A stretch of 64,000 nucleotides of DNA. It comes from Roseimicrobium sp. ORNL1 (GTDB lineage: Bacteria > Verrucomicrobiota > Verrucomicrobiia > Verrucomicrobiales > Verrucomicrobiaceae). The position numbers and the translations under genes were made by a program. This document shows, piece by piece, positions 28,413 through 52,962 of this stretch. Within the stretch, counting starts at the first letter, position 1; every line of letters begins with the position of its first letter. The stretch lies in NCBI RefSeq assembly GCF_011044495.1, contig NZ_CP049143.1, positions 1,674,001-1,738,000 on the forward strand, read 5' to 3'. Below the pieces are notes generated by a model, which worked only from the letters and a program-made list of their open reading frames with translations, had not been told where the DNA came from and ran no database searches.

Positions 28413-28701
28413 GCCGCCATGATAGTGGGTGGAAGCGGGCAGGCGAGGAACAAATGAGGCACACAAATAGGACCTTTGGGCAGGGGAGAGGGCTTGAATG
28501 CCGGCTCATTCGCTATGGGAACAGGGGTTGCGAGATTCGCATTCGTCAACGTGTGGAATAACGCGCGGATAATTCGATGATTTATAGAAAAACAAATCCA
28601 AACATGGATGCGGCCTGATTTATTGCGTGTGTGTCTGGTCATACTGGTGCTGGTTCGCGGTATTATTTGGCTCAAAAGATTTCCTGAGCGGGCAACATCA
28701 C

Positions 28702-28718
28702 TTGGCACCGCTCATGCT
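28702..28718 (+). promoter_or_regulatory. Sigma-54-like promoter upstream of the porin gene
   Basis: TTGGCAC-CGCTC-ATGCT matches the sigma-54 consensus TGGCAC-N5-TTGCW with one mismatch in the -12 box. The -24 GG (28704-28705) and -12 GC (28716-28717) are exactly 10 bases apart. The predicted start point lies about 55 bases before the porin ATG. Rigid GG-N10-GC spacing is the main support. Confidence 0.6.
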
Positions 28719-29611: not shown

Positions 29612-29638
29612 TTCGTGCCTGGTTAGCCATTCAAGTGG

Positions 29639-29676
29639 GCGCGCGCCGACGCCACAAACGCGGCGCGCGCTTTTTT
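29639..29676 (+). terminator. Intrinsic terminator after the porin gene
   Basis: A perfect 10 bp stem GCGCGCGCCG / CGGCGCGCGC with a 12-base loop is followed immediately by TTTTTT, starting 28 bases after the porin stop. It separates the porin transcript from urtA. Confidence 0.9.
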
Positions 29677-29723
29677 AGTGCCATCGACAAACAAGACACT
29701 CATTCATCATTCAACCATTCATC

Positions 29724-30977
29724 ATGAAACGCCGGTTCTTTAATTCGATGATGGCCGCAGCCCTGGTGGGCTCTGTGGCGCTCCCTGCGCATGCCGCCGA
29801 CACCGTGAAGGTGGGCGTGCTGCACTCCCTGAGTGGCACCATGGCCATCAGTGAGACGTCCCTCCGTGACGTGCTTCTTTACACGTTCGACGAAATCAAC
29901 GCCGCTGGCGGCGTGATGGGCAAGAAGATCGAGCCTGTGGTGGTGGATGGCGCCTCCAACTGGCCGCTCTTCGCTGAAAAGGCCAAGCAACTCCTCGAGC
30001 AGGACAAGTGTGCGGTCGTCTTCGGCTGCTGGACCTCCGTGAGCCGCAAATCGGTGCTCCCGGTCTTTGAAAAGAACAATGGCCTCCTCTTCTATCCCGT
30101 GCAGTACGAGGGTGAAGAAGAATCCCCGAACGTCTGCTACACCGCCGAAGCGGTGAACCAGCAGGCCACTCCCGCTGTGGACTACCTCCTTGAGCAGGGA
30201 ATCAAGAAATTCTACCTCCTGGGCTCCGACTACGTCTATCCCCAGACCACGAACCTCGTGCTTCTGGAGTATCTCCTGAGCAAGGGCGTGCCGCTCGAAA
30301 ACATCGGTGGTGGTTATCGCAAGGACGACTCCGGCAAGATCATCTCCGCCGGCAAGTACACCCCCTTCGGTCACACCGACTACCAGCAGATCGTTGCTGA
30401 AATCAAGCAATTCTCCGCCGGTGGCAACGCCGCGGTGGTGAGCACGCTGAACGGCGACACCAACGTGCCCTTCTTCAAGGAATACGCCGCTGCCGGCCTC
30501 ACTGCTGAGACCTGCCCGGTCGTGTCCTTCTCCATCTCGGAAGATGAATTCCGCGGTCTCCCCGCTGACAAGCTCGTGGGCCAGCTCGGCTGCTGGAGCT
30601 ACTTCCAGTCCATCGACAGCCCTGCGAACAAGAAGTTCGTGGACGGCTTCCAGTCCTGGCTGAAGAAGTCTGATGTCACTGGCATCGTGAAGGAAGGTCG
30701 CGTGACCTGCTCCCCGATGGTGCTCTCCTATGACGGTGTGTACCTCTGGAAGGCCTGCGTGGAAAAGGCTGGCAGCTTCGATGTGGACAAGGTGCGTGAA
30801 GCTTGGAAGAGCGGCCTGAGCTTCGAAGGCCCGAACGGCAAGGTCACTTCCCAGAAGAACATGCACATGACCAAGAATGTGTACATCGGCGAGACCAAGG
30901 CGGATGGCCAGTTCAAGATCCTCAAGGACTTCAAGGAAGTGTACGGCGAGCCCTGGCTGAAGGGCAAGTTCAAATGA
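29724..30977 (+). CDS. urtA: Urea ABC transporter substrate-binding protein UrtA
   Basis: 417 aa with a signal peptide ([24 protein letters not shown]). The mature protein follows the UrtA pattern throughout: [97 protein letters not shown], and the C-terminal [16 protein letters not shown]. It binds urea (or short amides) in the periplasm and delivers it to UrtBC. It opens the urtABCDE run, and a GC-rich hairpin separates it from urtB, as is common for highly expressed binding proteins. Confidence 0.96.
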
Positions 30978-31033
30978 TTTGAGGCTGCTTCGCCCCGCGA
31001 AGTGAGAGCTGGCCGGCGTGCCAGTTCCGAGTG

Positions 31034-31061
31034 GGGGCGGGTTCAGGAATGAGCCCGCCCC
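31034..31061 (+). terminator. Hairpin between urtA and urtB
   Basis: GGGGCGGG / CCCGCCCC stem with a 12-base loop, without a U-tract. It sits 57 bases after urtA. It may be a partial terminator or an mRNA stabiliser that lets the binding protein be made in excess over the permease. Confidence 0.45.
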
Positions 31062-31115
31062 TTCAATCCCTTCAGACGTTATCGCTGACTTTTCCATCCA
31101 TCTTTTCCTCTGCAC

Positions 31116-32828
31116 GTGAAAGCTCTCTTCCGCCTGCTCTCACTCACTCTGCTCTCGGGCTTGCTGTGCTCCGCCTCGCTCTTTGCAGAGACCGCCCGGC
31201 AAACCATTGCGAACGCTGCGCTGGCAGAAGACGCTGCCAAGAAGCGCGAGATCATCACCTCGCTGATCGGGCAGGGGGATGAAATCATCAAACCATTGCT
31301 CGACGATTGGAAGGCGGACAAACTTTACATTCACACCACGGCCACGGGCGAGAAGATTGCGGTGCGCCTGCAGGACGACAAGGATGACGCAGGCACCCAG
31401 AGCGCCGTGCGCGTGGACGATGGCACATCGCTCAAGGATGCTGCCGGTCAACCGCTGCGACTCATTGCCAAGGAGCAGAAAATCGTGGAGCACGATCGTG
31501 GCCTGCGCAATGCCATGAAAGGCGTGCTGGACCTGCTGGACCTGTCTTCACCCGATGTGAAAAAGCGCGTCCAAGCCGTGCAGACGCTCGGCTTCGCCCA
31601 GAATGCGGAGAAGGTGCCTGCGCTGGAAGCTCGCATGAAAGTGGAGCAGGATCCGGAGGTCATCCGCGCGCTCAAGGAAGCCATGGCGCTGATCAAACTC
31701 AAGGATCCTTCTGATGATGCGAAAGTAACAGCGCTCAAGGAGCTGAAGGAATTGCACACATTCTCGTCCTACGATTCCATCAAGGCCACGCTGAAGGAAG
31801 CAGAGGCTGCCTCCAAAGCGCCTGTGGCTGGTGCCGCGAAAGAGGCGCTTGCTGCCATTGATAGTCATCGGAGCTTTGTGAACTTCTTCGGTACCATCTT
31901 CCGTGGCCTCAGTCTCGGCAGCATTCTTCTTATTGCTGCCCTCGGTCTCGCCATCACGTTCGGCCTCATGGGCGTGATCAACATGGCGCACGGCGAGATG
32001 ATCGCGGTGGGGGCCTACACGACCTACATCGTTCAGAATATCTTCGGTGCGGGCGTGACCATTCCGCTCTTTGGTCTGTCGCTGGCCATCCCTGGTATGC
32101 ATGCCACCGGAGCCTTATACAATAGTTACTTCCTCTTCGCAATTCCCGCCAGCTTCCTGACGGCTGCACTGGTGGGCATTGCACTGGAGCGCGGCATCAT
32201 TCAATTCCTCTACCGCCGTCCGCTGGAAAGCTTGCTGGCGACGTGGGGCGTGTCCCTGCTGCTCCAGCAGGTCTTCCGTCTGACCTTTGGTGCGAACAAT
32301 GTGCAGGTGGGCAGCCCGACATGGCTCAGTGGTAACTGGACGATTGGTGATATCATCTTCAACTGGAACCGTGTCTTCGTCATCGGCTTCGCGATCTTCA
32401 TCGTGTTTGGTACTTATCTGGTGCTCACGAAGACGTCGCTCGGACTCTTGATGCGCGCGGTGATGCAGAACCGCAACATGGCCGCGTGCATGGGTATTCG
32501 CACGAGCCGGGTGAACATGATGACTTTCGGCTTCGGTAGCGGCCTTGCAGGCCTGGCGGGAGCCTTCCTCAGCCAGATCACCAATACAGGTCCTTCACTT
32601 GGGCAGAGCTATATCGTGGAATGTTTCATGACCGTGGTCGTGGGCGGGGTGGGGAATATCGCTGGCACTGTCACGAGTGCGGTAGGCATCGGCATGGCGG
32701 ATCAGTCCATCCAGCAGATCCTGCTGAATCCGGTGATGGGCAAGATTCTCGTGCTCGTGGGGATCATCCTCTTTCTCCAGTGGAGGCCAGCCGGCATTTT
32801 TGTCACCCGCAGCCGCTCGCTGGACTAG
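31116..32828 (+). CDS. urtB: Urea ABC transporter permease UrtB
   Basis: 570 aa. A signal-like N terminus (LFRLLSLTLLSGLLCSASLFA) leads into a roughly 210-residue extracytoplasmic region, with HEAT-like helices around SSPDVKKRVQAVQTLGFAQNAEKVPALEARM. Such an extension is typical of UrtB proteins. From about residue 265 the LivH-type permease begins: SLGSILLIAALGLAITFGLMGVINMAHGEMIAVGAYT, with multiple membrane helices ending in MGKILVLVGIILFLQWRPAGIF. It forms the membrane pore with UrtC. The urtC start follows after 80 bases that contain a strong sigma-54-like promoter. Confidence 0.95.
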   Translation: MKALFRLLSLTLLSGLLCSASLFAETARQTIANAALAEDAAKKREIITSLIGQGDEIIKPLLDDWKADKLYIHTTATGEKIAVRLQDDKDDAGTQSAVRVDDGTSLKDAAGQPLRLIAKEQKIVEHDRGLRNAMKGVLDLLDLSSPDVKKRVQAVQTLGFAQNAEKVPALEARMKVEQDPEVIRALKEAMALIKLKDPSDDAKVTALKELKELHTFSSYDSIKATLKEAEAASKAPVAGAAKEALAAIDSHRSFVNFFGTIFRGLSLGSILLIAALGLAITFGLMGVINMAHGEMIAVGAYTTYIVQNIFGAGVTIPLFGLSLAIPGMHATGALYNSYFLFAIPASFLTAALVGIALERGIIQFLYRRPLESLLATWGVSLLLQQVFRLTFGANNVQVGSPTWLSGNWTIGDIIFNWNRVFVIGFAIFIVFGTYLVLTKTSLGLLMRAVMQNRNMAACMGIRTSRVNMMTFGFGSGLAGLAGAFLSQITNTGPSLGQSYIVECFMTVVVGGVGNIAGTVTSAVGIGMADQSIQQILLNPVMGKILVLVGIILFLQWRPAGIFVTRSRSLD

Positions 32829-32848
32829 GTAGGCCATTTCTCCGGTGC

Positions 32849-32864
32849 TGGCACTCTTTTTGCA
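32849..32864 (+). promoter_or_regulatory. Sigma-54-like promoter between urtB and urtC
   Basis: TGGCAC-TCTTT-TTGCA is an exact match to the TGGCAC-N5-TTGCW consensus, with GG at 32850-32851 and GC at 32862-32863. The predicted start point is about 35 bases upstream of the urtC ATG. It is an internal promoter candidate for urtCDE and possibly the urease genes. Confidence 0.7.
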
Positions 32865-32908
32865 ACGGCTTCTCCAATTCGCAACGCACATCCACCTGAC
32901 TCCGCCAC

Positions 32909-34075
32909 ATGAGCCTTTCGCTTGTAGGTAACAATTTCTGGAACACACGCCGCACGATCGAGGTTGCCGCCGTGGGCAACATCGGAGTGTTGATGGTCGT
33001 GGTCTTGCCACTGCTGAATTCCTTGGATTTGATGTCCAACTTCTGGCTGGGCGTCATTGGCAAGTACCTCTGCTATGCCATTCTTGCCATCTCTGTGGAC
33101 ATGCTGTGGGGCTACATGGGCTTGCTGAGCTTGGGGCAGGCCCTTTTCTTCAGTCTCGGAGGGTACATGCTGGGCATGTATCTGATGCGAATGATTGGCG
33201 GCGAGACGATGCCCACGTTTCTTTCCATGCAAGGCTATGAGGACTGGCCGTGGTTCTTCGCACCTTTTACAAGCTTCTCCTTCGCCATGCTGATGGTGGT
33301 CTTCGTTCCCGGGATAGTAGCTCTGGTATTCGGTTTCCTTGCTTTTCGTTCGCGCATCAAAGGGGTGTACTTCTCCATCCTCACCCAGGCTCTCACCTAT
33401 GCGGCCGCTCTTCAATTCTTCCGCAACGACATGCTCATGGGAGGAAACAATGGCTTTACGGACTTCAAGCTCCTCCTTGGACATGACATCCGCAGCGAGG
33501 TTACGCAGCGTGCGCTCTATATCATTACCGGAGTGGCCCTCATCGGCATCTATGCCATGTGCCGCTGGCTGAATGGCACCAAGTTCGGCCTAGTGCAGCG
33601 AGCTATTCGCGACAGTGAAAATCGTGTGCTCTTCTCAGGCTACGCTGCGGCACACTACAAGCTTTTCATCTTTGTGCTGAGCGGGATTGTGGCGGCCATT
33701 GGTGGCGCGCTCTACGTGGCGCAGGTGCAGATTATCAATCCTGCGGAGATGCAGGTGGACAAGTCCCTGGATGCTGTGGTGTGGGTCGCGGTCGGTGGTC
33801 GGGGTACACTGCTGGGACCCATCATCGGTGCGGTCAGTGTGAATGCACTCAAGAGCTGGGCCACCAACGCTTTCCCGGATGCATGGCTCATCATCCTGGG
33901 TGGTCTCTTCGTTTTTGTAGTGCTCTTCATGCCCAAGGGAATCGTGGGTCTGCCTGCGCAATTGATGGGCGTGTGGAGGAAATATCAGGCTCGAAAGTTG
34001 GTGGATGATGAGCCGACGGTGCCCCTTGCTGAAACTCCCACTGCAGACCCCACCGCTTCTTCTCCAGTCAAATGA
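32909..34075 (+). CDS. urtC: Urea ABC transporter permease UrtC
   Basis: 388 aa, a LivM-type permease. It has about ten hydrophobic segments, with the UrtC-typical [35 protein letters not shown] early, a long loop around [19 protein letters not shown], and a conserved [25 protein letters not shown] near the C terminus. It pairs with UrtB in the inner membrane. Its stop overlaps the urtD start by four bases (ATGA), so translation is coupled. Confidence 0.95.
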
Positions 34076-34854
34076 GTGCCACGCTGCAACTTGCTGAACC
34101 AAAACCATTCCTCCTGGCTGCGGAAGGATTGAACAAGTCCTTCCAGGGATTCCGTGCGATCAAGGATCTCTCGTTCTATCTCGACCAGGGGGAGCTTCGA
34201 ACGGTCATCGGGCCAAACGGTGCGGGGAAGACCACTTTCCTGGATCTCATCACCGGTCGCACCAAGCCCGATACGGGGACGATGCAGTTTGAGAATCGCG
34301 ACATCCTCCCGATGAACGAGTATGAGATCTACCGTCTGGGGATCGGTCGCAAATTTCAGACGCCTACGGTCTATACGGATCACACGGTGTACGAGAATCT
34401 TGTGCTCAGCTTGGAGGGTTCTCGTGGGGTGTGGCGCAGCCTCTTCAGTAAGGTTAAGCCCTCCGAAAAAGACCGCATCGCTGAGATTCTGGATACCATC
34501 AAGCTCAAGGATAGCGCGAAACGGAAGGCCGGTGAGCTGGCGCACGGGCAGAAGCAGTGGCTGGAGATCGGCATGCTACTGGCCCAGAATGCGAAGCTGC
34601 TCCTCGTGGATGAGCCGGCTGCTGGCATGACGGATGAAGAGACGCACCGCACAGGTGAGTTGCTGCTTTCACTCGCGGGTGCGCACACCATCGTGGTGAT
34701 TGAGCATGACATGACCTTTGTGCGGCAGATTGCCAAGGACCGCCGCGTGACCGTGCTGCATCAGGGTACGGTGCTTTGCGAGGGTGCCGTCGACTTCGTG
34801 CAGAACGACGAGCGTGTCATCGAAGTGTATCTCGGCCGCAAATCAAAACACTAG
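34072..34854 (+). CDS. urtD: Urea ABC transporter ATPase UrtD
   Basis: 260 aa. LivG-type ATPase with Walker [18 protein letters not shown], a Q-loop region FQTPTVY, an ABC signature-like [14 protein letters not shown], Walker [12 protein letters not shown] and the H-loop VVIEHDM. The AHGQKQW form of the signature is characteristic of UrtD. It powers UrtBC together with UrtE. A 4-base overlap with urtC and a 6-base gap to urtE put it firmly in the operon. Confidence 0.95.
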
Positions 34855-34860
34855 TCCTTC

Positions 34861-35562
34861 ATGAACGTATTAGAGGTCAAAGGCCTTCAAGCATCGATTG
34901 GCGGAAGCCGCATACTGCGTGGCGTGGAGTTTCAGGTGCCGCCGAAGTCGGTCTTCTGCCTGATGGGGCGCAACGGCGTGGGGAAGACCTCCACGCTGAA
35001 GTCGCTCGTGGGACTGCTGGGCACGGACAGCGGAAGCATGACGCTGGATGGAAAGGCCCTCAATGGTCTTGCGCCTGAGGAGCGTGCGCGCATGGGGATT
35101 GGCTATGTACCGCAGGGACGCGAAATCTTCCCGCACCTCACTGTGCAGGAGAATCTGGTCATCGGCACCGTGGCGCGTGGCATGAAGCTCAATGGCCAGC
35201 TCGACCGTATCTACACGCTCTTTCCCATCATCAAAGAGTTCCTGCCGCGTAAGGGCGGGATGCTGAGCGGTGGACAGCAGCAGCAGCTCGCCATTGCGCG
35301 AGCCCTGCTCACGAAGCCCAAGCTGCTCATTCTCGATGAACCCACCGAGGGCATCCAGCCGAACATCATCGACCAGATCGGCGATGCCATCAAGATGCTG
35401 CGCGAAGAGGGCGAGATGAGCATTCTTCTGGTGGAGCAGTACCTCGACTTCTGCAAGGAACTGGGGGATAACTTCGCCATTCTCGAGCGCGGCTCCGTGG
35501 CCGCTTCTGGAGCAATGAAGGATCTCTCGGACCAGATGATTAAAGAATTTCTCACGGTGTGA
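34861..35562 (+). CDS. urtE: Urea ABC transporter ATPase UrtE
   Basis: 233 aa. LivF-type ATPase with Walker A LMGRNGVGKTSTLKSLVG, Q-loop YVPQGREIFPHLTVQENL, signature MLSGGQQQQLAIARALL and Walker B LLILDEPTEGIQPNII. It is the second nucleotide-binding subunit of the urea importer. The urease-linked HupE/UreJ gene begins 74 bases later, so transport and hydrolysis are probably expressed together. Confidence 0.95.
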   Translation: MNVLEVKGLQASIGGSRILRGVEFQVPPKSVFCLMGRNGVGKTSTLKSLVGLLGTDSGSMTLDGKALNGLAPEERARMGIGYVPQGREIFPHLTVQENLVIGTVARGMKLNGQLDRIYTLFPIIKEFLPRKGGMLSGGQQQQLAIARALLTKPKLLILDEPTEGIQPNIIDQIGDAIKMLREEGEMSILLVEQYLDFCKELGDNFAILERGSVAASGAMKDLSDQMIKEFLTV

Positions 35563-35636
35563 GCGAAGCGCAGTTGCGCTGCTGCTCATGCCATCCCAAT
35601 TTGGCCAATACTCTCTCATCTTCTTCCCAAACTCCC

Positions 35637-36251
35637 ATGACCCTGAGAAGACTGCTCCCGAAAGCCCTGCCCCTGGCCCCGTTCCTTCTGGCCACGAGCG
35701 CGTACGCGCACCCCGGCCATCCGCATCCCTTTGAAGAGGTGGACGAGTTCGAGTCACCTGCCGCAGATTTTGCGCAGGCGGTGCTGCATCCGTTCTCAGG
35801 GTTGGATCACCTCCTCGCTGCGGTGATGGTGGGATGCCTGGTATACATGATGGGGCGTAAGCTCGGCGCAGTGGCCTCCGCGATGTTCATAGGCAGCCTG
35901 ACACTAGGCTGGGCAATTGCGAAGGTTGGTATGGCCTTGCCCATGATGGAGCAGGGACTCGCGCTCTCGGTGGTGGCCGCAGGGCTGATGTTGGTGATGT
36001 ATGCGAAGGCCTCGAATGCGGTGTGTTTCGGTGTGATTGCCGCCCTCGGATTCTGGCACGGCAGCGCGCATGGGATGGAGATGGCCTCGGTCGCTCCTGC
36101 AGCAGGCCTGATTGCAGGCACGGGAGTCGCGATGATGCTTGGCTCCATGGTGGCGATGGTTTCCACGAAGCTGAGTCCCTCAGCTATCAAGTATGCAGGT
36201 GCTGCGGCTGCGGTCGCTGGCGTGGTGATGGTGGCCCAGCGCGTGGCCTGA
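35637..36251 (+). CDS. ureJ: HupE/UreJ-family nickel permease
   Basis: About 204 aa from ATG 35637 (MTLRRLLPKALPLAPFLLATSAYA), giving a good signal peptide; the longer GTG start at 35559 overlaps urtE and reads poorly. The mature N terminus HPGHPHPFEE is a histidine-rich metal-binding segment. HPFSGLDHLLAAVMVGCL is the HupE/UreJ signature (HPxxGxDH), followed by five or six membrane helices including GFWHGSAHGMEM. It brings Ni2+ into the cell for the urease encoded immediately downstream. Confidence 0.9.
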   Translation: MTLRRLLPKALPLAPFLLATSAYAHPGHPHPFEEVDEFESPAADFAQAVLHPFSGLDHLLAAVMVGCLVYMMGRKLGAVASAMFIGSLTLGWAIAKVGMALPMMEQGLALSVVAAGLMLVMYAKASNAVCFGVIAALGFWHGSAHGMEMASVAPAAGLIAGTGVAMMLGSMVAMVSTKLSPSAIKYAGAAAAVAGVVMVAQRVA

Positions 36252-36289
36252 GGTTTGGGACTTGAGCTTGAGGCTTCGAAAATTTCACC

Positions 36290-36592
36290 ATGCATCTCTC
36301 TCCTCGCGAACAGGAAAAGCTCCTTGTGGTTGTGGCGGCGGACCTCGCGCGCAAGCGCCGTGACCGCGGCCTGAAGCTGAACTATCCCGAAACGATCGCG
36401 TTCATCACCGCCGAGATTTTCGAAGGTGCGCGTGACGGCAAGAGTGTCTCCGAACTCATGAGCTACGGCACCACTCTGGTGAAGAGGAGTGAAGTCATGG
36501 AAGGTGTGGCCGAGATGATTCACGACATCCAGGTGGAAGCGACCTTCCCCGATGGCACCAAGCTCGTCACGGTGCACAACCCTGTACGCTAA
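36290..36592 (+). CDS. ureA: Urease subunit gamma
   Basis: 100 aa, the standard length. Starts [23 protein letters not shown] and contains [27 protein letters not shown] and [18 protein letters not shown], all diagnostic for UreA. The smallest structural subunit of the nickel urease trimer. It is separated by 12 bases from ureB; the gene order ureA-ureB-ureC is the usual bacterial one. Confidence 0.97.
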
Positions 36593-36604
36593 CAACGCAC
36601 ATCC

Positions 36605-36918
36605 ATGATACCGGGCGAAATCATCCATCCTCCAGGAAGCGGGGAGTTGCCGGCGAATGTCGGCCTGGCCACGACCACGGTGCTGGTGTCCAACACCGGC
36701 GACCGGCCCATACAGGTGGGGAGCCACTTCCATTTCTACGAAGTGAACACTTCGCTTGAGTTTGATCGCGCTGCGACGCTGGGTTTCCGGCTGAACATTC
36801 CCGCGGGAACCGCCGTGCGTTTTGAGCCGGGCGACACTCGTGAAGTAGTGCTCGTGGCCTTCGCCGGCAAGCGCGAGATGTACGGACTCAACAACCTCGT
36901 GAACGGACCGTTGCCAGC

Positions 36919-36922
<4 letters not shown>
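36605..36922 (+). CDS. ureB: Urease subunit beta
   Basis: 105 aa. [11 protein letters not shown] start, [46 protein letters not shown] and a C-terminal [10 protein letters not shown] are all canonical for UreB. It overlaps the ureC start by four bases, indicating translational coupling to the catalytic subunit. Confidence 0.97.
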
Positions 36923-38640
<1,718 letters not shown>

Positions 38641-41553: not shown

Positions 41554-43377
41554 CTAACTACTCCGACTCTTCATCCAGTCACGCCAGCCGCCGAAGGAGG
41601 TGATTTCTTCTTCGGGTTGCAGGGCGATGGATTCGCAGAGGAAGCCGAAGACTTTGGTGCCGTCTTCGAGTTGCACTTTGCCGAAGCCGAGGGGTGGAGG
41701 CACGGCATTTACAAACGAGCCGACGGTGTCTTCGGGCAGTTCCCAGACTTCGAGTGCGATGGAGGTGCCGCCTTCCGTCACTCGGACGAGACCAGGACGG
41801 TCAGGGATGCTTCCAGTGCCGGGCACGCGATAGAGGCGGTAGTCCGGGGTGGTGCTGCCCTTGCGCACAAGGCGCCCGCCGCGTGAGATGAGTTGGTGAT
41901 TGAGCGGCAGGCCTTCCATGTGCGCACCGCATACCGCGATCTTCATCCAGGGCTTTGCTGCGGACGCTGTAGGAGATGGCATGGCAGGCAAAGCACTGCT
42001 GTTGATAGCGGTCTTCCCCACAGGAAGCTCGCTCTTCGCATGCATGGCTGCCGCGAGTACGGCCAGTCGCTTGTCCTCAAAGGCAGGCGAGAAGAGCGTG
42101 ATGCCCCAAGGCAACCCATTCCCAAGGAAACCCGCTGGCACCGCCCAGGCGCAGAGGTCCAGCAGGTTCATGTAGTTCGTGTACTTGCCCAGGTTGGAGT
42201 TGAGCTTGATGGGCTCGGCGAGAACCTCGGCGACTTTGTAAATCGTACCTGCGGTTGGCGTGAGGATGGCATCCACCTCAGACCACACGGCTTCCGAGGC
42301 GCGCTTGAGTTCGGCGAGACGATATTGCGAGGTAAAGGCAGCCACCGCATTGGGCTTGGCACCACCTTCAATGATCTGTCGCGTGACGGGATAGAGTGCT
42401 TCCGGAGTCTTTTCGATCAACTCAGGAATCACCGAATACCGTTCCGCGACCCAGGGGCCTTCATAGAGCAGACGTGCAGCATCGAGGAAGGGTTGCAGGT
42501 CCACTTCGCGAATGCGCCAGCCCAGCGACTCCGCGCGGGCGATGGAAGCTTCGTAAAGCCTCTGTGCATCGGCATCACCGAAGAAGTCGCGCTGCTCCGG
42601 CTTGGGCACACCGATGACGACGGACGCAGGATCCCAAGGCCGCTGCGAAGCGACATAGGGGCGTGCATAGGCATCCGCCTTATCAAACTCGGAAACGACG
42701 TCAGCCACGGCAGAGGCATCTGCCACGGACAAGGCGAAGACAGAGATGCAATCCAACGTGCGGCAGGCGGGCACCAGCCCCGAGGAACTGAGCAGGCCGC
42801 GCGTGGGCTTCCATCCCACGAGATTGTTAAACGAAGCCGGCACGCGGCCTGAGCCTGCGGTATCTGTGCCGAGGCTAAAGCTCGCCAACCCAAGCGCCAC
42901 GGACACGGCAGAGCCAGAGCTGGAGCCGCCGGGGATGTATTCCGCATCAAACGCATTCTGCGGCACACCATACGGCGAACGCACACCCACAAGACCCGTA
43001 GCGAACTGGTCGAGGTTCGTCTTGCCAAGAGGAATGGCTCCCGCAGCGATCAGCTTCTCCACCACGAAGGCGGATTTCGCCGGCTGGTAGCTATACGCAG
43101 GGCAGGCGGACGTGGTGGGCAGGGCATCCCAGTCGATGTTGTCCTTGATGGCAAAGGGGATGCCATAGAGTGGCAATGACGTCGGGTCCTTTTTCTCCAG
43201 CGCCGTGAGCAGTCCATCCACCACGCTCCACTCCGGACGTGCAATCCAGATGGCGGAGTCGGATTTCTCCGCGAGGTCAAACGCAGCGCGCACGACCTCG
43301 CGAGGAGTGGTGGTTTTAGAACGGTAGGCAGAGAGCAGGGTGGCGATGGACAGGTCCGGAGCCGGAGAGGAAGTCAT
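41554..43377 (-). CDS. atzF: Allophanate hydrolase
   Basis: 607 aa. The amidase-signature domain occupies the first 450 residues: [20 protein letters not shown] (catalytic Lys), [32 protein letters not shown] (Ser-cisSer pair). The C-terminal domain from about residue 480 ([40 protein letters not shown]) is the allophanate hydrolase partner domain. It cleaves allophanate to ammonium and CO2 via carboxylated intermediates. Its start overlaps the stop of the preceding carboxylase gene by four bases (ATGA), so both enzymes are made together as the last steps of the pathway. Confidence 0.95.
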
Positions 43378-46300
43378 GGAGCGATGGCGAGAAGTGTTTG
43401 GCCAGGAGAGACGGACTGGCTCTCACGTACCAGCACGGAAGATACCAATCCCGCCACCGGTGTGTGGACGTGGATCTCCATTTTCATCGCTTCCACCAGG
43501 GCCACGGTCTGCCCACTCTCCACGCGGTCACCCTCGGCTACGAGGAGCTTCCACAGGCTGCCATTCACCGGGCTCTGGATGGCCTCATGGCCATCTTCGA
43601 GCACGAAGTCTGCGGTCTCTTCAATCGCTCCTGTCTCGGAGGCGCTGGCGACATTCAGGCCTGCGGCGGCCCAGCGCTGGCGCTCTTCGTCGAAGGCGCG
43701 CTGCTGCTTTTCCTTGAACTCACGAATACCGGCATCCTCGCGGCTCAGGAACTCATGGTAATCGGAAAGCTTGAAGGTGGTGTCTTCAACACGTGGCGTG
43801 AAGCGGCCGTAGGGGAAGTCGCGACGGAGTTCCAGCAGTTCCTCCGGGCTCACGAGGTAGAACCGCACCTGGTCAAAGAAGCGCAGGAGCCATGGTCTGC
43901 CCTGCTCGAATGACGCGGTGGAGCGGAAGCGGTTCCACATCTGGATGGTGCGTCCTACGAACTGATAACCGCCGGGGCCTTCCATGCCGTAGATGCACAG
44001 GTAGGCACCGCCGATACCCACGGCATTCTCCGGCGTCCAGGTACGGGCAGGATTGTACTTCGTGGTGACCAGACGGTGACGCGGATCCAGTGGAGTCGCT
44101 ACAGGTGCGCCGAGATACACGTCGCCAAGGCCCAGCACGAGATAGCTGGCATCCAGCACGATGCGTTGCACGTCATCGATGGATTCGAGCCCGTTGATGC
44201 GGCGGATGAATTCGATGTTGCTCGGGCACCACGGAGCATCCGGTCGCACAGATTGCGTGTATTTCTGAATCGCTTCCTTCGTGGCCGGGTCATCCCACGA
44301 GAGCGGCAGGTGTACGATGCGCGAGGGCACCTCCATCTGATCCATGCTGGGCAGGTTTTGCCGCACTTCCTCGACCAGATCGATCACCCCATTCAGGCTG
44401 AGATCCTGGTTGTCGAAATGGATCTGCAGCGAGCGGATGCCGGGCGTGAGATCGATGATGTCCGGATGATCCCTGCGCACGAGTGCGAGGTAGATCGCAT
44501 GCGCCCAGAAGCGGAGCTGGATGTCGAGCACCAAAGGTCCGAACTCCACCAGGAGACAACGGTCCCCGGAGGGACGGTACACAATCTCCGGACGCTCACC
44601 GTCGGCAGGGATGGTGCGCAGCACCGCGCTGGTGTGGGGCACTTCTCCGGGCTCAGTGCGCCCGGGTTCCACGGGGGACTCAAGCTTGAGCGTGGCAATG
44701 AGGGTCTCCTGCTGTTCCTGCAGGATGCGGGCTTCGTCTTCCTCCAGCTTGCAGAAGCACACCTTGTCCCCGGGCTTTAGCTGGCCCAGCTTCCAGAGTT
44801 CTGCCTGCACGACCACGGCGGGACAGACAAAGCCGCCCAGGCTCGGGCCGTCCGGGCCCAGGAGAATGGGCATGTCACCCGTGAAATCCACGGAGCCCAC
44901 CGCATAGGCGTTGTCGTGAATGTTGGAGGGATGCAGACCGGCTTCGCCGCCATCAGGACGCGCCCACTTGGGCTTGGGGCCGATGAGTCGCACGCCTGTG
45001 CGCGCGGAGTTGTAGTGCACCTCCCACTCCGTGGCGAAGAAGGTGTCCATGTCTTCCGGCAGGAAAAACTCTGGTGCGCCGTGCGGACCATAGAGAACAC
45101 CGAGATTCCAGAGCCGACCTGCGCCCGAGGCGGAGACGTGGCCTGACACAAGGGCGAAGGCATTCGCGAGTCCCTTCGCCCTTTCGGCGATGATCTCTTC
45201 CTCTTCTTCTTCCAAAAGATGGGCAGAGCCATTCTCCTTGATGGAGAGCACATCTCCCAAGCGCAAGGCGCGACCGGCATGTCCGCCCACGTTGCCAAGG
45301 GTGAAGGTGGATCTGCTGCCAAGATACAGCGGGACATCGATGCCACCCTGTACGGCGAGGTAAGCGCGGCAGCCTGCACCCGAGGCCGAGCCAATCTTCA
45401 ACGTCTGCCCTGCCTTGATGGCGATGGGGCGCCAGAAGTCCACGGGCACGCCATCGAGTTCCGCAGACATCGTGGCGCCTGCGAGCGCGATGCGTGTATC
45501 CATGTTGAACCGCAGCGTGGGTCCGCCCACGGTGATCTCCAGGCCCGCGGCCTGCTGGCCATTTTTCAGCAGTCTGTTTGCCAGCCGGAGCGAGAGCGGA
45601 TCCATGGCCCCTGAGGGAGGCACGCCCACTTCCCAGTAGCCCTGCCGCCCGGGATAGTCCTGCACCGTGGTCATGGTGCCTGGGGCCATCACATCAATCG
45701 TGCGGGGCTTGTACTCAAAGTCGCCGAGCGCGCGCGTAGTCATGCGGCCATCCTTGAAGAGATCGCTTTGAGCGATCTGCTTGAGGTAGGCGACATTCGT
45801 CTCGATGCCACCCAGTCGCGTGGACTCCAGTGCGGAGATGAGCTTGGCGCGGGTTTCCTCGCGGGTCTCACCGTGAACGATGATCTTCACCAGGAGAGGA
45901 TCGTAGTGCGGTGTCACCTCCGTGCCGGCGCTCACCCATCCATCGTAGCGCACTTCCTTGGGCAGGCTCACGTGGGTGAGCACGCCGCAGGAGGGCTGGA
46001 AATCCTTGTTGGGATCCTCCGCATACACACGGGCCTGCATGGAGCAGCCAAAACGCGTGATGTAGATGTTCTCCACATTCATCTCGTGACCTGCCGCCAG
46101 GCGGATCATCCACTCCACGAGGTCGAATCCGGTCACCTCTTCCGTGACGGTGTGCTCCACCTGCAGGCGGGTGTTCACTTCCAGGAAGAAAAACTTTCCT
46201 GTGTCCGCATCGTACACAAACTCGACGGTGCCCGCAGAGCGGTAGCTCACGGACTTCGCGAGGCGCACGGCAGCCTCCCAGAGATTGCGGCGCTTCTCCT

Positions 46301-47042
46301 CATCGAGTCCTGGAGCCGGAGTTTCCTCGATGACCTTCTGGTTGCGCCGTTGCGTGGAGCAGTCGCGCTCGCCGAGAGCAATCACGCCGCCGAATCCATC
46401 GCCAAAGATCTGCACCTCGATGTGCCGCGCGTTGACGACGAACTTTTCCAGAAACACTCCACCATCACCGAAGCTGGCCTTGCCCTGTCGCACGACGGAT
46501 TCGAAGGCATTGCGCAGAGCATCCGGGTCATCACAGCGGCGCATGCCGATGCCACCACCACCCGCCGTGCTCTTGAGCATCACGGGGTAGCCGATGAGTT
46601 CGGCTTCATCCAGGGCTTCTGCGGCGTTGGAGAGCAGGTTGGTTCCCGGTACCAAGGGCACCTTGCAGGCGATCGCGTGCTCCCTCGCCATGTGCTTCAT
46701 GCCAAAGGCACGCATCTGCGCGGGCGTCGGCCCGATGAAGACCACGCCTGCCTTCTCACAGGCCTCGGCAAAGGATGCATTCTCGCTCAGCAGACCGTAG
46801 CCGGGATGCACTGCCTCAGCACCGCTCTTCGCGATGATCTCCAGAATTCTCGGCTGGTTCAAATAGCTCGCGGAAACTTGTGCTCCCCCCAACAGGTAGG
46901 CTTCATCCGCCATGGCCACATGCGGGGCATCACGGTCCGCTTCCGAGTACACGGCCACGGATTTCACGCCCATCTTCTTGAGCGTCCACATGATGCGGCA
47001 GGCGATCTCGCCACGATTGGCGACCAGGACTTTGCTAAACAT
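43374..47042 (-). CDS. uca: Urea carboxylase-family enzyme, probably guanidine carboxylase
   Basis: 1222 aa, biotin-dependent. Biotin carboxylase domain residues 1-445 ([17 protein letters not shown]-grasp [13 protein letters not shown]). The carboxyltransferase halves follow: KipA/AHS2-type from about 445 ([20 protein letters not shown]) and KipI/AHS1-type from about 820 ([17 protein letters not shown]). The BCCP domain is C-terminal with biotinyl-Lys1187 in [10 protein letters not shown]. Annotated relatives are urea carboxylases, but those co-encoded with two DUF1989 proteins have been shown to prefer guanidine. A complete urease is encoded next door. I therefore infer guanidine to be the natural substrate; the specificity residues were not checked. 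Confidence 0.92.
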
Positions 47043-47045
47043 AAA

Positions 47046-47705
<660 letters not shown>

Positions 47706-47709
47706 GGCC

Positions 47710-48426
47710 TTAGCGGGAGAGCAGGTAGTAGTCGAGGGTGTTGCGGTAGGCACGCGCGTTTTCCGGGCGCACCGTCATGGTGGCGTCCTCCATCGTGGGC
47801 GCGGCATTGGGGAAAACACTGAGCTTCACCGGGCGTGGCCCGTAGGTCTGGGAGGGGTGAAGTGGGTGCTGGCACGTATGCAGTACCACGAGCGTGTCCA
47901 TTTCGAAACGCAGGTCCACATGGTCGCCCGCCTTCGAGTGGCCCTCCACGTAGGAGAGATTGCCATCCACATCCGCCACCACCTTGCTGAAGAAGTTGAT
48001 GTTCGGCACCAGGTCGCGTTCCCCGAGCCCCCACTTGGCCAGCTCGATGAGGAAGCATTCGCGGCCGTTCCGGTAGAATTCATTCCGCGCCTCCTGGAAG
48101 TTGTGCACGCCGTAGCGCTCCTCCACCAGTTCCGCGTCGCTGGTGCCACACACCGTGTCATGCCAGCCGCAGGTGTCCTCCGTGATAGAGGCAAAGAGGC
48201 GGCCCATGTCCGAGTGGATGCCGTAGGGCGCGCGGAGGTAGAAGATGTGCTGGCCTTTCAGCGTGTCTGGCATGTTGTACCGCTCGTGGCGCTCGGGAGC
48301 GTGGTAGAGCAGCATACCCACATTGGCGCCACCGTTCAGGTCGGTGAGGCGGAGTGTCTTGCCGCGGGAGATGACGCGGGACCACATGCCCGCGCCGGTG
48401 AGTTCGATTTCGTAGATGGGTTCCAT
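47710..48426 (-). CDS. Urea carboxylase-associated protein 1 (DUF1989), likely carboxyguanidine deiminase subunit
   Basis: 238 aa. DUF1989 pattern: [77 protein letters not shown] and [19 protein letters not shown]. It shares the D-TCG-HDT and L-PNINFF blocks with the next gene, consistent with a heteromeric enzyme built from related subunits. It lies 22 bases after the NikR-like regulator, as the second gene of the minus-strand operon. Confidence 0.88.
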
Positions 48427-48448: not shown

Positions 48449-48922
48449 TCAAGCAGCCTCGGATTCCACTTCGGCAGACTGGATGGGAGGCAGGATGGTA
48501 CGGGAGAGATTGAAGCGCCCGCTTAGCACGCCTTTACAGGCCAGTAACTCGCTGGCAATCCGGCGCAGGGTTTTTGCCCGTCCTTGCACCAACAGCACCT
48601 CCATGGTGTGGCTGTTCTCCAGCAGTACCTGCAGCGAGCTGATGACCTCCGTGATGTGGGTGTACTGGATCTCGGAGAGCTGCTGCTTCAGGCCGGGCTT
48701 CTTGTGATCGTAGAGCAGGGTGATGGTCCCGGCCATGAGGTGGTCTCCCTTCAGACTGTAGTAGTCCGAGATTTGCTGCTGCATCATCTCGGAGATCGCC
48801 TGGGAGCGGTTCGAGAAGCCGCGCTCGTCCATCATCTCCTCGAACTGCTTGTACAGGGGGACCGGCAGGGAGATGGAGATGCGCTGTACAGGCTCGGGAC
48901 GGGAGAGGGGAGTTTCCGGCAT
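48449..48922 (-). CDS. NikR-fold ribbon-helix-helix regulator lacking the nickel ligands
   Basis: About 157 aa from ATG 48922 ([13 protein letters not shown]); ATGs at 48940 and 48952 are also in frame. The N-terminal RHH domain reads [35 protein letters not shown]. The C-terminal ACT-like domain ([22 protein letters not shown], then [35 protein letters not shown]) aligns with NikR without gaps. The positions of E. coli NikR His76, His87, His89 and Cys95 are Tyr, Gln, Leu and Thr here. A different effector is therefore likely. It is the first gene of the DUF1989-carboxylase operon and divergent from the ABC importer, so it is the obvious local regulator. Confidence 0.85.
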
Positions 48923-48935
48923 GCATGCCGCAGCA

Positions 48936-48951
48936 AGCATCGGGAATGCCA
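48936..48951 (-). promoter_or_regulatory. 16-base motif shared with the divergent promoter (minus-strand copy)
   Basis: On the minus strand TGGCATTCCCGATGCT matches 14 of 16 bases of the plus-strand motif at 49443-49458 and keeps GG-N10-GC spacing. It lies only about 14 bases before the chosen regulator start. It is therefore either an operator, or a promoter giving a nearly leaderless mRNA. Confidence 0.4.
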
Positions 48952-48953
48952 CC

Positions 48954-48964
48954 GCGTCATACGA
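48954..48964. promoter_or_regulatory. GCGTCATACGA repeat, copy 1 (candidate operator half-site)
   Basis: This 11-base word recurs exactly at 49388-49398, so each divergent operon has one copy. It contains TCATAC, the half-site of the E. coli NikR operator (GTATGA-N16-TCATAC), but no matching second half at 16 bases is visible. Confidence 0.4.
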
Positions 48965-49127
48965 TTTTCATCAGGAGTAATATTCAAAGCGCGGCCCGGT
49001 AGGATGGTGGCCACACGCCAGTGGTACTGGCTTGCGTTGGGTCCTTCCCCCGAGGCTCCCACGACAGACACGCACGGCTCTTCGTGGCAGTCGTGGGAGT
49101 CTCACACACGGCCCCAGCCTGACCACC

Positions 49128-49169
49128 AGACAGACACACACACCCCTAAAGGTGTGTGTGTGTCTGTCT
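49128..49169. repeat. Long CA/TG-rich hairpin in the divergent intergenic region
   Basis: AGACAGACACACACACC and GGTGTGTGTGTGTCTGTCT form a 17-19 bp stem with a two-base slip and a CCTAAA loop. A second small hairpin (TGACCCA...TGGGTCA) follows at about 49187-49208. There is no U-tract. The simple-sequence content suggests length may vary. Confidence 0.6.
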
Positions 49170-49340
49170 CTGTGTCAGTCTCGGCTGACCCAGGCATGCT
49201 TGGGTCATGAGTAGTAGAGTTCGAGACTAAAGGACAGAACCTGAGAGGATTAAACGCGTATGGACGCAGCTCCATAGGCATGGCCAGTTCCTGTGGCTGC
49301 TGGGCTTCTCTCCAAATCTATCGTGGACTGGGCAGCCCAT

Positions 49341-49358
49341 CAGGTGTATATACACCTG
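49341..49358. promoter_or_regulatory. Perfect 18-base palindrome upstream of the ABC operon
   Basis: CAGGTGTATATACACCTG is a perfect inverted repeat, about 85 bases upstream of the predicted -24 element. Size and placement fit an activator or repressor site. The partner protein is not known; the adjacent NikR-like protein is a candidate. Confidence 0.5.
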
Positions 49359-49387
49359 GCGTGTAAGTCTCATGCGAGGGCTCGCGT

Positions 49388-49398
49388 GCGTCATACGA
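49388..49398. promoter_or_regulatory. GCGTCATACGA repeat, copy 2
   Basis: Exact copy of 48954-48964. It lies about 45 bases upstream of the sigma-54-like element of the ABC operon and just after a small palindrome (CATGCGAGGGCTCGCGTG, 49371-49388). Confidence 0.4.
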
Positions 49399-49442
49399 AC
49401 TGCCTCAAGAAATATTACGATCTTTGGCCCGAAGCTGGATTT

Positions 49443-49458
49443 TGGCATGCCCGGTGCT
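49443..49458 (+). promoter_or_regulatory. Sigma-54-like promoter of the second ABC operon
   Basis: TGGCATG-CCCG-GTGCT fits the sigma-54 consensus with mismatches at one -24 and one -12 position and exact GG-N10-GC spacing (49444-49445 and 49456-49457). The predicted start is near 49469, leaving about 28 bases to the ATG at 49498, which is preceded by a good AAGGAGA ribosome binding site. Confidence 0.5.
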
Positions 49459-49497
49459 GACTTGGATGGCCTTCACCACCGACCCAAGGAGATACAC

Positions 49498-50505
49498 ATG
49501 CTGAAATTCATCTTGTCCAAGACCAAGACCCTCGCTGTGGCCGCGCTCGCAAGCGCCGCCTTGTTTGCTCCCACCGCACCGCTCGCCGCTGCTCCGCTCA
49601 AGATTGGCTACAGTGACTGGCCCGGCTGGGTCGCCTGGGAGATTGGCGTGAAGAAGGGCTGGTTCAAGGAAGCTGGCGTGGATGTGGAGTTCGTGTGGAT
49701 GGACTACGTGAAGTCCATGGAAGCCTATGCTGCCGGCCAGCTCGATGCCGTCACGATGACCAATGGAGATGCCCTGGTGACAGGCGCCACGGGAAAGCCC
49801 TCCGTCGGGATCATCATCAATGACTTCTCCAATGGGAATGACATGGTGATTGCCAAGAAGGGCATCGACTCCGTGAAGGCGCTCAAGGGCCAGACCATCG
49901 GGGTGGAAGTGGGCTTTGTGGATCACCTGCTCCTTCTGAAGGGTCTTGAGCTGAATGGCATGACGGAGAAGGACGTGACGCTCAAGAACACCCCCACGAA
50001 CAACACGCCCCAGGTGCTCGCCTCCGGTGAAGTCGCCGCCATTTGCGCATGGCAGCCGAACTCAGGACAGGCGCTGAAGGTCGCTCCCGGATCGAAGGCC
50101 ATCTTCACCTCCAAGGATGCCCCCGGCCTCATCTATGACCTGCTCTACGTCGATGCCGCCAGCCTCAAGGACAAGCGCGAGGAGTGGAAGAAGGTGGTGC
50201 AGGTCTGGTACAAGATCGTGGACTACATGTCCGATGAGAAGAACCTCGATGACGCACTGGTGATTCTGGCTGGTCGCGTGGGTGTCACTCCTGCGGAGTA
50301 TGAGCCCCTGCTTGGTGGCACCATGATCCTGAAGCCCGAGGCCGCGCTGAAGGCCTGGAAGAAGGGTGAAGGTCTCGACTCGGTCTATGGTTCCACCAAG
50401 GTGGTGGATGCCTTCAACGTGAAATACGAGGTCTACAAGGAGCCTGCCAAGACGGAGTCCTACCTCGACCCCTCCCTCACCTTGGAAGTGCTCGGCAAGA
50501 AGTAG
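49498..50505 (+). CDS. NitT/TauT-type ABC substrate-binding protein (urea carboxylase region)
   Basis: About 335 aa from ATG 49498, chosen because AAGGAGA lies 5 bases upstream and a signal peptide ([32 protein letters not shown]) begins there. The mature protein starts [33 protein letters not shown], the pattern of periplasmic proteins found beside urea carboxylase genes. Later blocks: [42 protein letters not shown]. It should capture the substrate of the adjacent pathway, most likely guanidine, in the periplasm. It is the first gene of a three-gene importer operon. Confidence 0.9.
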
Positions 50506-50557: not shown

Positions 50558-52066
50558 ATGGGTTCTGACCCTCTTCCTCCAGAACCTCAGAAGCATCGAG
50601 AGCCGTGGTTTGCCGTCCGGAAAGATCTGGACGGCCCGCGGAACTCGGCGCTGATGACGTTGTCATTTGTCCTGCCGCTGCTGGCATGGATCGTTGCCTC
50701 CTACGGTCCCTTCTGGAAGGCGCTGCATGAGGTGCAGATCTCCGCGGAGAGTCCTTCCGTGGCGAGCGTGTATGTGCCGGGAGACCGGCTCGCACCCGAC
50801 TACTTCACACCTTTCCAGGAAGCGATTCGCAAAGACAATGCCGCGGTGCAGGCTGCGCGTGATGCGGGCACGCCGCTGGAAGCCACGGCGCGGCAGAACA
50901 AGAAAGTCGTGCGGCATCTCTTTCCACTCGCCCTGGCAGAGGGCTGGGCGGGAAAGGAAGATGAAGCCAATGATGACAAGCTGCGCAGCGTGTGGCTGAA
51001 GATCGCGAGTGGCGAGTCCATTCCTCAGAAGGTCGAGCCCAGCGATGAGAACGCGAAGATCATCAAGGCCAACGCCGCGCTGCTCTCCGGTGCCGAGTGG
51101 CCCACACAGGCACTGCTGAAGCTGGTGCCGCAGTCGCGCGTATCCTATGACTATCCCGTGTATCTGGTGCCTCCGCACAAGGTCTTCACCACCGCGTGGG
51201 CGGACTTGAAAGGGAAGCCTGACGATACGAGCGCGGAGGAGGGGACAGAGAACAAGTCGGACGCGAAGTCGCTGCTCGTGCGTTACCAGGAGTCGCTGCG
51301 CACCATCAGTTTCGGCTTCCTGCTCGCGGCGCTGCTGGCCATTCCTCTGGGCATCCTGGCTGGCACGTTCGCGGTGTTTTCGAAAATGTTGGAGCCCTTC
51401 ACGGACTTCTTCCGCTACATGCCGGCGCCGACGTTTGGGGTGGTGCTGATGGCCATCTTCGGCCTCGAAGCCGCGCCGAAGATCATGCTGGTCTTCATCG
51501 GTACCTTTCCCACGGCGCTGCTGGTGATTGCGAATACCACACGGCAGCTCGATGTCTCGCTGCTGGAAGCGGCGCAGACGCTCGGTGCGAATCAGAAGCA
51601 GCTCGTCACGCGCGTCATCATCCCGGGAATCATGCCCACGCTGTACAATGACCTGCGCATCCTCATCGGCTGCGCGTGGACGTGGTTGGTGATCGCGGAA
51701 CTGCTGGGCTTCAAGAGTGGCCTCACGGAAATCATCGACACACGTGGGCGTCGCTTCCAGTTTGAGCATGTGTATCCGGCCATCTTGATGATTGGCCTCA
51801 CGGGATTCTTCACAGACCAGTTCCTTGGCTGGATAGGGCGCGGACTTTTCCCATGGGCGTTCCGTGGGCAGGCGGCTTCGTCACGCTGGTTCATCCGGGC
51901 ACTCACGTTCCTCCCGCGTCTTTTGGTGGCTGGCATTCGCAAGGCTTCTGCATACGCAGAGAAGCCGACCTTCCCCGCAGTGGTGCCTGAGGAGCCAGTT
52001 GCAGCTCCTGCGCCGTCGCCGTCCCCCCTCCCTGCCGTCACTCCCACGCCTCGCACCTCGCTATGA
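50558..52066 (+). CDS. NitT/TauT-type ABC permease with large N-terminal extension
   Basis: 502 aa, much longer than the 250-300 aa usual for this permease class. A first membrane helix ([22 protein letters not shown], about residues 31-52) is followed by roughly 190 mostly polar residues predicted to be extracytoplasmic (for example [22 protein letters not shown]). The regular permease then begins around residue 245 ([24 protein letters not shown]). The EAA loop reads [30 protein letters not shown] Pro-rich cytoplasmic tail ends the protein. The stop overlaps the ATPase start by four bases. Confidence 0.9.
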
Positions 52067-52962
52067 TTGCCACCCTCGACCTGCCTGACTATCGCGCGCA
52101 GACGCCTGCAGTCGCGGAGCGCTTCACGAAGCTGAAGCAGCGTCCGGCGGTGCTGTCCGTGCGTGGCTTGGAGAAGCGGTTCCCTTCACCGCAGGGTGAA
52201 GTCACCGCGCTGAAGAACATCAACTTCGATGTGCATCGCCGGGAGTTCATGTGCGTGGTGGGACAGTCCGGTTGCGGCAAGTCCACGCTCATCCGCATGC
52301 TTGCGGGACTGGAGACGCCCACGAGTGGGGAACTGCTCGTGGATGGCAAACCCGTGCGTGGCCCGGGTCGTGACCGCGGCATGGTGTTCCAGGGATATAC
52401 CCTGTTCCCCTGGCTTACCGTGAAGGCGAATGTGATGTTCGGCCCGCTCATGGCAGGCAAGGCGAAGTACACCGCCGAGTCCGAGGCTCGGCAGTGGATC
52501 GAACTGGTGGGGCTCAGCAAGTTTGAGGATGCCTATCCGCATCAACTCAGCGGTGGCATGAAACAGCGCGTGGCCATTGCGCGTGCGCTGGCAAACGAGC
52601 CACGCATCCTGCTGATGGATGAACCCTTCGGCGCACTGGACGCGCAGACGCGCGCCCAGATGCAGAGCTACCTGCTGCAGATCTGGAAGAACATCGACAT
52701 CACCATCCTCTTCATCACGCATGATCTGGATGAGGCCGTGTATCTCTCCGACCGGGTGCTCGTGCTGGAAGCACGCCCGGGCAGGGTGAAGGAAATCGTC
52801 GAGGTGCCGGTGCCACGCCCGCGTGACTTCTCTCAGATTGCGTTGCCTGAGTTCATGGCCACGAAGAATCGCTTACAAGAGCTCATCCATCCCGAGTCCG
52901 AGCGGAAGGAAGACAAGCTGCCCGTGCTGCGCCTCACGACGGTGGGGGATGATGTGGAGTAG
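52063..52962 (+). CDS. NitT/TauT-type ABC transporter ATP-binding protein
   Basis: 299 aa. Walker [20 protein letters not shown]-loop [17 protein letters not shown] signature [18 protein letters not shown], Walker [17 protein letters not shown] and H-loop [17 protein letters not shown] place it with SsuB/TauB/NrtD ATPases. An N-terminal extension of about 30 residues precedes the ATPase core. It overlaps the permease gene (ATGA) and ends the importer operon; no terminator hairpin is obvious after it. Confidence 0.93.

Follow-up and report, generated by a model that had tools for sequence, protein, structure and literature searches.

A candidate nickel-independent NikR-family switch at the sigma-54 promoters of guanidine and urea operons in Verrucomicrobiota

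The window, the 64,000-nucleotide stretch of Roseimicrobium sp. ORNL1 DNA analyzed here, contains a 575-bp intergenic region (48923-49497, taking the ATG at 48922 as the regulator start) that forms the divide between a leftward operon of regulator, UAAP1, UAAP2, carboxylase, and allophanate hydrolase genes and a rightward ABC transporter operon. The left operon, on the minus strand, is led by a NikR-family regulator of 157 aa with a ribbon-helix-helix and a NikR_C domain (48449..48922). It continues with a UAAP1-family protein (DUF1989; 47710..48426) and a UAAP2-family protein (47046..47753), which by their context would be the two subunits of a carboxyguanidine deiminase, a carboxylase of the urea carboxylase family (43374..47042), and an allophanate hydrolase (41554..43377). 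The transporter operon, on the plus strand, encodes an NMT1/SsuA-like substrate-binding protein (49498..50505), related to TIGR03427 and under its cut-off, a permease (50558..52066), and an ATPase (52063..52962). Guanidine carboxylases are distinguished by Asp at Kluyveromyces lactis (K. lactis) positions 1330 and 1584 (PMC11410670). The window carboxylase has Asp aligned to both Asn1330 and Asp1584 of 5i8i (counted by eye). Its diagnostic residue, which is Asn1330 in the urea enzyme of K. lactis, is the Asp of the guanidine type, and Asp1584 is kept. Among 127 loci with a carboxylase match, 109 have Asp at the diagnostic motif and 2 have Cys, the motif not being found in 16. As judged from its predicted products, the left operon encodes a guanidine-type carboxylase pathway.

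The original prediction had drawn attention to two words, each present on both sides of the divide, and had read both as sites of one co-regulating protein. The repeats are real. The first word, GCGTCATACGA, stands at 48954-48964 and again at 49388-49398 and, with two forward and no reverse matches in the one-contig, 7,957,748-base genome (reversed control, 0), is unique to the region; the second, a 16-base motif, lies at 48936-48951 on the minus strand and at 49443-49458 on the plus strand with 14 of 16 positions identical. This second word does not bear out the role of a further regulator site. Promoters of the sigma-54 type have a GG-N10-GC core within the consensus TGGCAY...TGCW, and the TGGCAT-N6-TGCT of the motif contains the GG-N10-GC of such -24/-12 promoters. 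We rejected a second operator because of this fit, the orientation of each copy toward its genes, and the presence of the motif in 7/7 transporter regions where the locus lacks the regulator; judged by its letters and placement, the motif is a sigma-54 promoter core, one per operon, each facing its genes. The predicted promoter toward the regulator operon is TGGCATTCCCGATGCT (48936..48951, minus strand, predicted +1 at ~48925) and the one toward the transporter operon TGGCATGCCCGGTGCT (49443..49458, plus strand, predicted +1 at ~49469). The genome encodes rpoN and contains ten strong matches to enhancer-binding proteins; a strict sigma-54 motif that precedes the rpoN match by ~65 bp (G000:C1:4883800-4883815) hints at rpoN autoregulation. 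On the regulator side (48922-48951), the predicted start falls ~3 nt ahead of the ATG, so the message would be near-leaderless, which would rule out the GTG at 48952 as a start.

We counted the motif in two collections of loci. The first set consisted of 97 upstream regions, 54 of the regulator and 43 of the substrate-binding protein, and both the promoter and the half-site patterns were picked after viewing it; loci gathered later therefore give the fairer test. Of 86 such loci fetched, 11 already seen were removed, leaving 75, of which 43 have the regulator; they share kinship with one another and with the first set, and upstream regions below 150 nt (2/43 regulator regions) and transporter matches below 50% identity were omitted. 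In the first set, the sigma-54 motif was found on the gene strand in 61/97 regions and on the other strand in 14/97 (shuffles, 2.1), and in the later loci it was present in 18/41 regulator and 9/11 transporter regions (shuffles, 0.4 and 0.35). Within the window, 5 matches to the strict TGGCAYN6TGCW were found against 1.03 expected, and none of 100 shuffles reached 5; two of these matches lie in the control region and another at 28703. A sigma-54-like motif also appeared in 8/74 control regions taken upstream of carboxylase and hydrolase genes (shuffles, 1.2), and genome-wide the strict TGGCAYN6TGCT occurs 47 times as compared with 35 for the reversed pattern. With such background, the motif by itself is weak evidence, and the case for the two promoters rests on place, orientation, and conservation.

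The first word had been noted to contain the NikR half-site TCATAC. It does carry a NikR-type half-site, but the predicted operator extends beyond the word to a second half-site at a distance of 21-22 bp. Predicted operator 1 (48956..48983), which includes GCGTCATACGA, combines GTCATAC at 48956-48962 with GTAATAT at 48977-48983, 21 bp apart; predicted operator 2 (49390..49418) combines GTCATAC at 49390-49396 with ATATTAC at 49412-49418, 22 bp apart. To describe such pairs we used the seven-letter half-site pattern GTMWKAC with one mismatch allowed and counted spacing from start to start. Pairs at spacing 21 occurred in 46 of the 97 first-set regions (shuffles, 0.3) and at spacing 22 in 8 (shuffles, 0.8), the remaining spacings from 8 to 40 giving 0 to 5 pairs. 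In the later loci, pairs with either of these two spacings were present in 19/41 regulator regions (shuffles, <1), with no pair in the other 22/41, and in 5/11 transporter regions. Where the later loci lack the regulator, pairs were seen in 0/7 transporter and 1/32 UAAP1 regions, and controls gave 1/74. The pattern GTMWKAC-N14/15-RTAWTAY, designed to cover both window sites, has three matches in the 7.96-Mb genome (reversed control, 1), and each of the three precedes a sigma-54 motif that belongs to a nitrogen-use operon. Half-site orientation varies at one spacing, being inverted, direct, or everted. Several relatives carry GTATGA-N16-TCATAC ahead of the regulator gene, which is the arrangement of the Escherichia coli (E. 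coli) NikR operator (PMC7055735), and NikR variants GTGTTAC-N13/14-GTAACAC and reversed half-sites, as well as Desulfotalea NikR sites, have been described (PMC545781).

Conservation in relatives, the test that the original prediction had set itself, holds for the words. In the sister species of the same genus (G061), the same operons diverge from an intergenic region of only ~212 bp, both words hold their position on both sides, and the DNA from operator to start codon is nearly identical to that of the window on each side; a third tandem half-site at 49369, absent from G061, was treated as chance. These patterns strongly suggest that the protein of 48449-48922 binds the operators, by which it would also control its own operon. 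Co-regulation of both operons by one protein thus looks correct, with the NikR-family protein in that part, but of the two words only the first would belong to its operator.

What the sister lacks is the middle of the region: ~360 bp, most of the segment 48988..49387, is absent from G061. The structured elements that had also been noted lie here. The CA/TG hairpin is present at ~49127-49169, within arms 49113-49147/49150-49184, as is the perfect 18-base palindrome CAGGTGTATATACACCTG at 49341-49358, and neither the hairpins (49052-49103, 49113-49184) nor the palindrome is retained in G061. The segment also holds a 22-bp near-perfect palindrome, TGACCCAGGCATGCTTGGGTCA, at 49186-49207. No further full copy of the segment was found in the window genome or in G061, and we rejected a mobile repeat on this ground. 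Could these elements act in control, as a riboswitch, an attenuator, or sites of an enhancer protein? Their structure is strong (DNA fold of 49050-49210, z = -7.26 vs shuffles), and the perfect palindrome precedes the transporter promoter by ~100 bp, a usual distance for an enhancer. Yet all of them are inside the segment that G061 lacks and that has no second full copy in either genome, and in the intergenic region Rfam gave no match at gathering threshold, only look-alikes far below it, of which the best, to a microRNA model, scored 31 bits (gathering 100). A control function of these elements is extremely improbable. For a guanidine riboswitch in particular (classes in Rfam 15), nothing in the window reached the gathering threshold, and on this result and the weakness of the look-alikes we rejected a riboswitch or attenuator in the control region. 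Nor was a guanidine riboswitch found in 40 short loci (39 genomes, all of the same class; ~1.5 kb on each side of the regulator or UAAP1) or in 18 long loci of the same group, some of whose genomes are shared with the short set.

The regulator itself belongs to the NikR superfamily by fold, with a ribbon-helix-helix followed by the NikR C-terminal domain. Pfam matches are NikR_C (1.7e-21) and RHH_1 (8.8e-05), the comparison with Pyrococcus horikoshii (P. horikoshii) NikR gives 1.5e-23, and the predicted structure (mean pLDDT 83.3, pTM 0.56) is closest to NikR structures, with a best E of 2.3e-12. One could think of a true nickel-responsive NikR that chooses between a nickel urease and the nickel-free carboxylase route, a reading consistent with the NikR name assigned just over the cut-off of one NCBIfam model, with the protein being the sole NikR match in the genome, and with one operator at a urease cluster. 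The ligands tell otherwise. Nickel is bound in E. coli NikR by His76, His87, His89, and Cys95 (PMC7055735); at these positions the window protein carries Y, Q, L, and T. In a set of 98 such proteins that includes the one from the window, the nickel Cys is found in 0/98 and all four ligands in 0/98. The three ligand His are kept in 12/98, a point in favor of a nickel response; the score against TIGR02793 nikR is below the cut-off of that model (63.4 vs 175.45 bits). As all four ligands are replaced, a nickel link is unlikely for the window protein, and the nickel-governed choice of route as a whole is very improbable.

We then compared the DNA-contact residues with the operators in the 74 of 98 proteins whose operator could be classified with one mismatch allowed. 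All 33 with Thr as the second contact residue have GTATGA/TCATAC-type operators, and 37 of 41 with Ser have GTAWTAC or GTAACAC types; the four Ser exceptions comprise three TCATAC types, the window among them, and one mixed. In a first look at exact half-sites the link was complete (Thr 24/24, Ser 12/12), and it is weaker with one mismatch allowed. The window protein is of the Ser type, yet each of its operators is a hybrid in which one half-site is of the TCATAC type. The protein tree shows 7 changes in the contact residue and 6 in the operator, with 7 independent residue/operator pairs on all branches and 3 on supported ones and none in the opposite direction; these are too few for a sign test to reach significance. 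A C-terminal tail motif is conserved in 94/98 proteins, a pattern that was picked after looking and is not counted as evidence.

The third genomic match is predicted operator 3 (28638..28666), GTCATAC and GTATTAT 22 bp apart, which is retained in G061 with GTAATAC as its second half-site. The strict sigma-54 motif at 28703-28718 begins 36 bp past it and forms the predicted promoter TGGCACCGCTCATGCT (plus strand, predicted +1 at ~28729) of a cluster at 28784..38640 on the same strand, with a porin-like ORF (28784-29611), a UrtA-like ORF (29724-30977, UrtA-like domain by Pfam) followed by urtBCDE-like ORFs, and a ureC-like ORF (36919-38640). The urt and urease names come partly from reading the translations. 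Another strict sigma-54-like motif, TGGCACTCTTTTTGCA, lies between the urtB-like and urtC-like ORFs (32849-32864, plus strand) and may be an internal promoter. The ureC-like ORF also contains an antisense Rfam match to 5_ureB_sRNA (37077-37369, minus strand; 101.8 bits, gathering 40); this model matches in loci L049 and L052 too and may reflect conserved coding sequence, not RNA. We looked for the operator upstream of urt in 21 close UrtA relatives among 29 loci, of which 2 were too short and 19 readable. A sigma-54-like motif was present in 14/19, and the only convincing operator pair was that of G061, as 15/19 had none and 3/19 had weak, off-consensus pairs judged to be chance. We accordingly rejected urt/urease as a general member of the regulon; the cluster seems to have joined it in the window's genus.

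How the regulator would act can be approached from operator position. Operator pairs were present in 90 regions, of which 62 also contain a strict sigma-54 motif and 28 lack one. In these 62, the operator abuts the -24 element from upstream in 20, lies 11-40 bp upstream in 12 and farther in 2, overlaps the core in 9, and falls on the downstream side of -12 in 19, including a spurious case at +455. The core-overlapping and downstream operators favor a repressor, a role that we infer with moderate confidence and that E. coli NikR has as well (PMC7055735). The opposite reading, an activator or co-activator of sigma-54 promoters, or a protein acting either way by site position, draws on the 34/62 operators upstream of -24, which fall into clusters at ~-41/-44 and ~-62/-65 with some two helical turns between them, and on the window species, whose three operators are centered at ~-44.5, -65, and -77 from the predicted starts, all upstream of -24. 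The starts are predicted, and the 9 and 19 operators in and beyond the core suit a repressor, so we consider this reading unlikely. In the window species an activator is possible; a repressor there would have to hinder the polymerase or the looped enhancer protein.

Taken together, the observations are probably best explained by a nickel-independent NikR-family gate on sigma-54 promoters of guanidine and urea operons. Two divergent sigma-54 promoters would each adjoin a NikR-type operator with 7-bp half-sites ~two helical turns apart, and the regulator would gate both divergent operons, that of the guanidine carboxylase and that of the ABC transporter, as well as, in the window's genus, the urea-transporter/urease cluster. 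This gating would sit on top of control by sigma-54 and its enhancer protein, probably under nitrogen limitation. Since the nickel site is lost, the signal read by the C-terminal domain is most likely guanidine or a carboxylase-pathway metabolite, and a guanidine-related ligand has weak to moderate backing. A general nitrogen signal, such as glutamine, urea, or ammonium status, would suit ACT-like domains, which often bind amino acids, and the third site of the window's genus serves urea transport and urease. Against it, sigma-54 would already read nitrogen status, the operator is missing at the urea cluster in most relatives, and guanidine riboswitches occur in the same kind of operon in other phyla: of 11 such loci, 10 have no regulator, and 7 of these 10 have guanidine-I or -II. 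We regard a general signal as somewhat unlikely. In Thiomicrorhabdus, a gammaproteobacterium, a NikR-family gene adjoins UAAP1 and a guanidine-II lies beyond the hydrolase gene (L191, 8522-8935 and 16089-16135); horizontal transfer of the regulator is possible.

A joint reading, tentative and to our mind somewhat short of an even chance, is that Verrucomicrobiota swapped the guanidine riboswitch for a nickel-free NikR clade sensing guanidine or carboxyguanidine, and that contact residue and half-sites changed together, the window's genus being half-switched. The regulator is common and not universal, being absent in 6/60 first-set loci and in 7/45 later loci (L118-L172), one of which ends just upstream, so that some riboswitch-free loci have neither control. 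Riboswitches have been named as the only guanidine receptors known besides transporters and enzymes (PMC12186494). In searches that covered mainly open-access literature, we found no paper linking NikR with guanidine or urea carboxylase operons, none joining a nickel-responsive regulator to allophanate, and nothing relevant on guanidine riboswitches in Verrucomicrobiota. If the proposal is true, these proteins would be the first guanidine-responsive transcription factors, and a metal-sensor family would have shifted to a new signal with its operator geometry retained. The locus is a concrete candidate with defined operators, reducing the question to a binding assay, and genes at such loci called nickel-responsive regulator NikR may be misnamed.

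The proposed switch can be set beside three known systems. It resembles NikR of E. coli, Helicobacter pylori (H. pylori), and P. horikoshii in sequence, predicted fold, and operator half-sites ~two turns apart, and, as with the Desulfotalea NikR sites (PMC545781), its half-site orientations vary. It differs from NikR in having lost the nickel ligands to other residues and in its predicted targets, which are sigma-54-dependent operons for guanidine and urea; in addition, one contact-strand residue and the letters of the half-sites differ between lineages of these regulators. With the riboswitch-run guanidine carboxylase operons of the Vreelandella boliviensis type (PMC12508155) the window has in common the enzymes as well as an ABC transporter that includes a substrate-binding subunit, and induction by guanidine would be expected here too; in place of a riboswitch, none of which was detected in the window, its operon has a NikR-family gene. 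The -24/-12 promoters, finally, are those of sigma-54 nitrogen-use genes, and sigma-54 control of COG3665 genes has been predicted in Proteobacteria (PMC12316311), whereas the present case is in Verrucomicrobiota and is joined to a NikR-type operator at the promoter.
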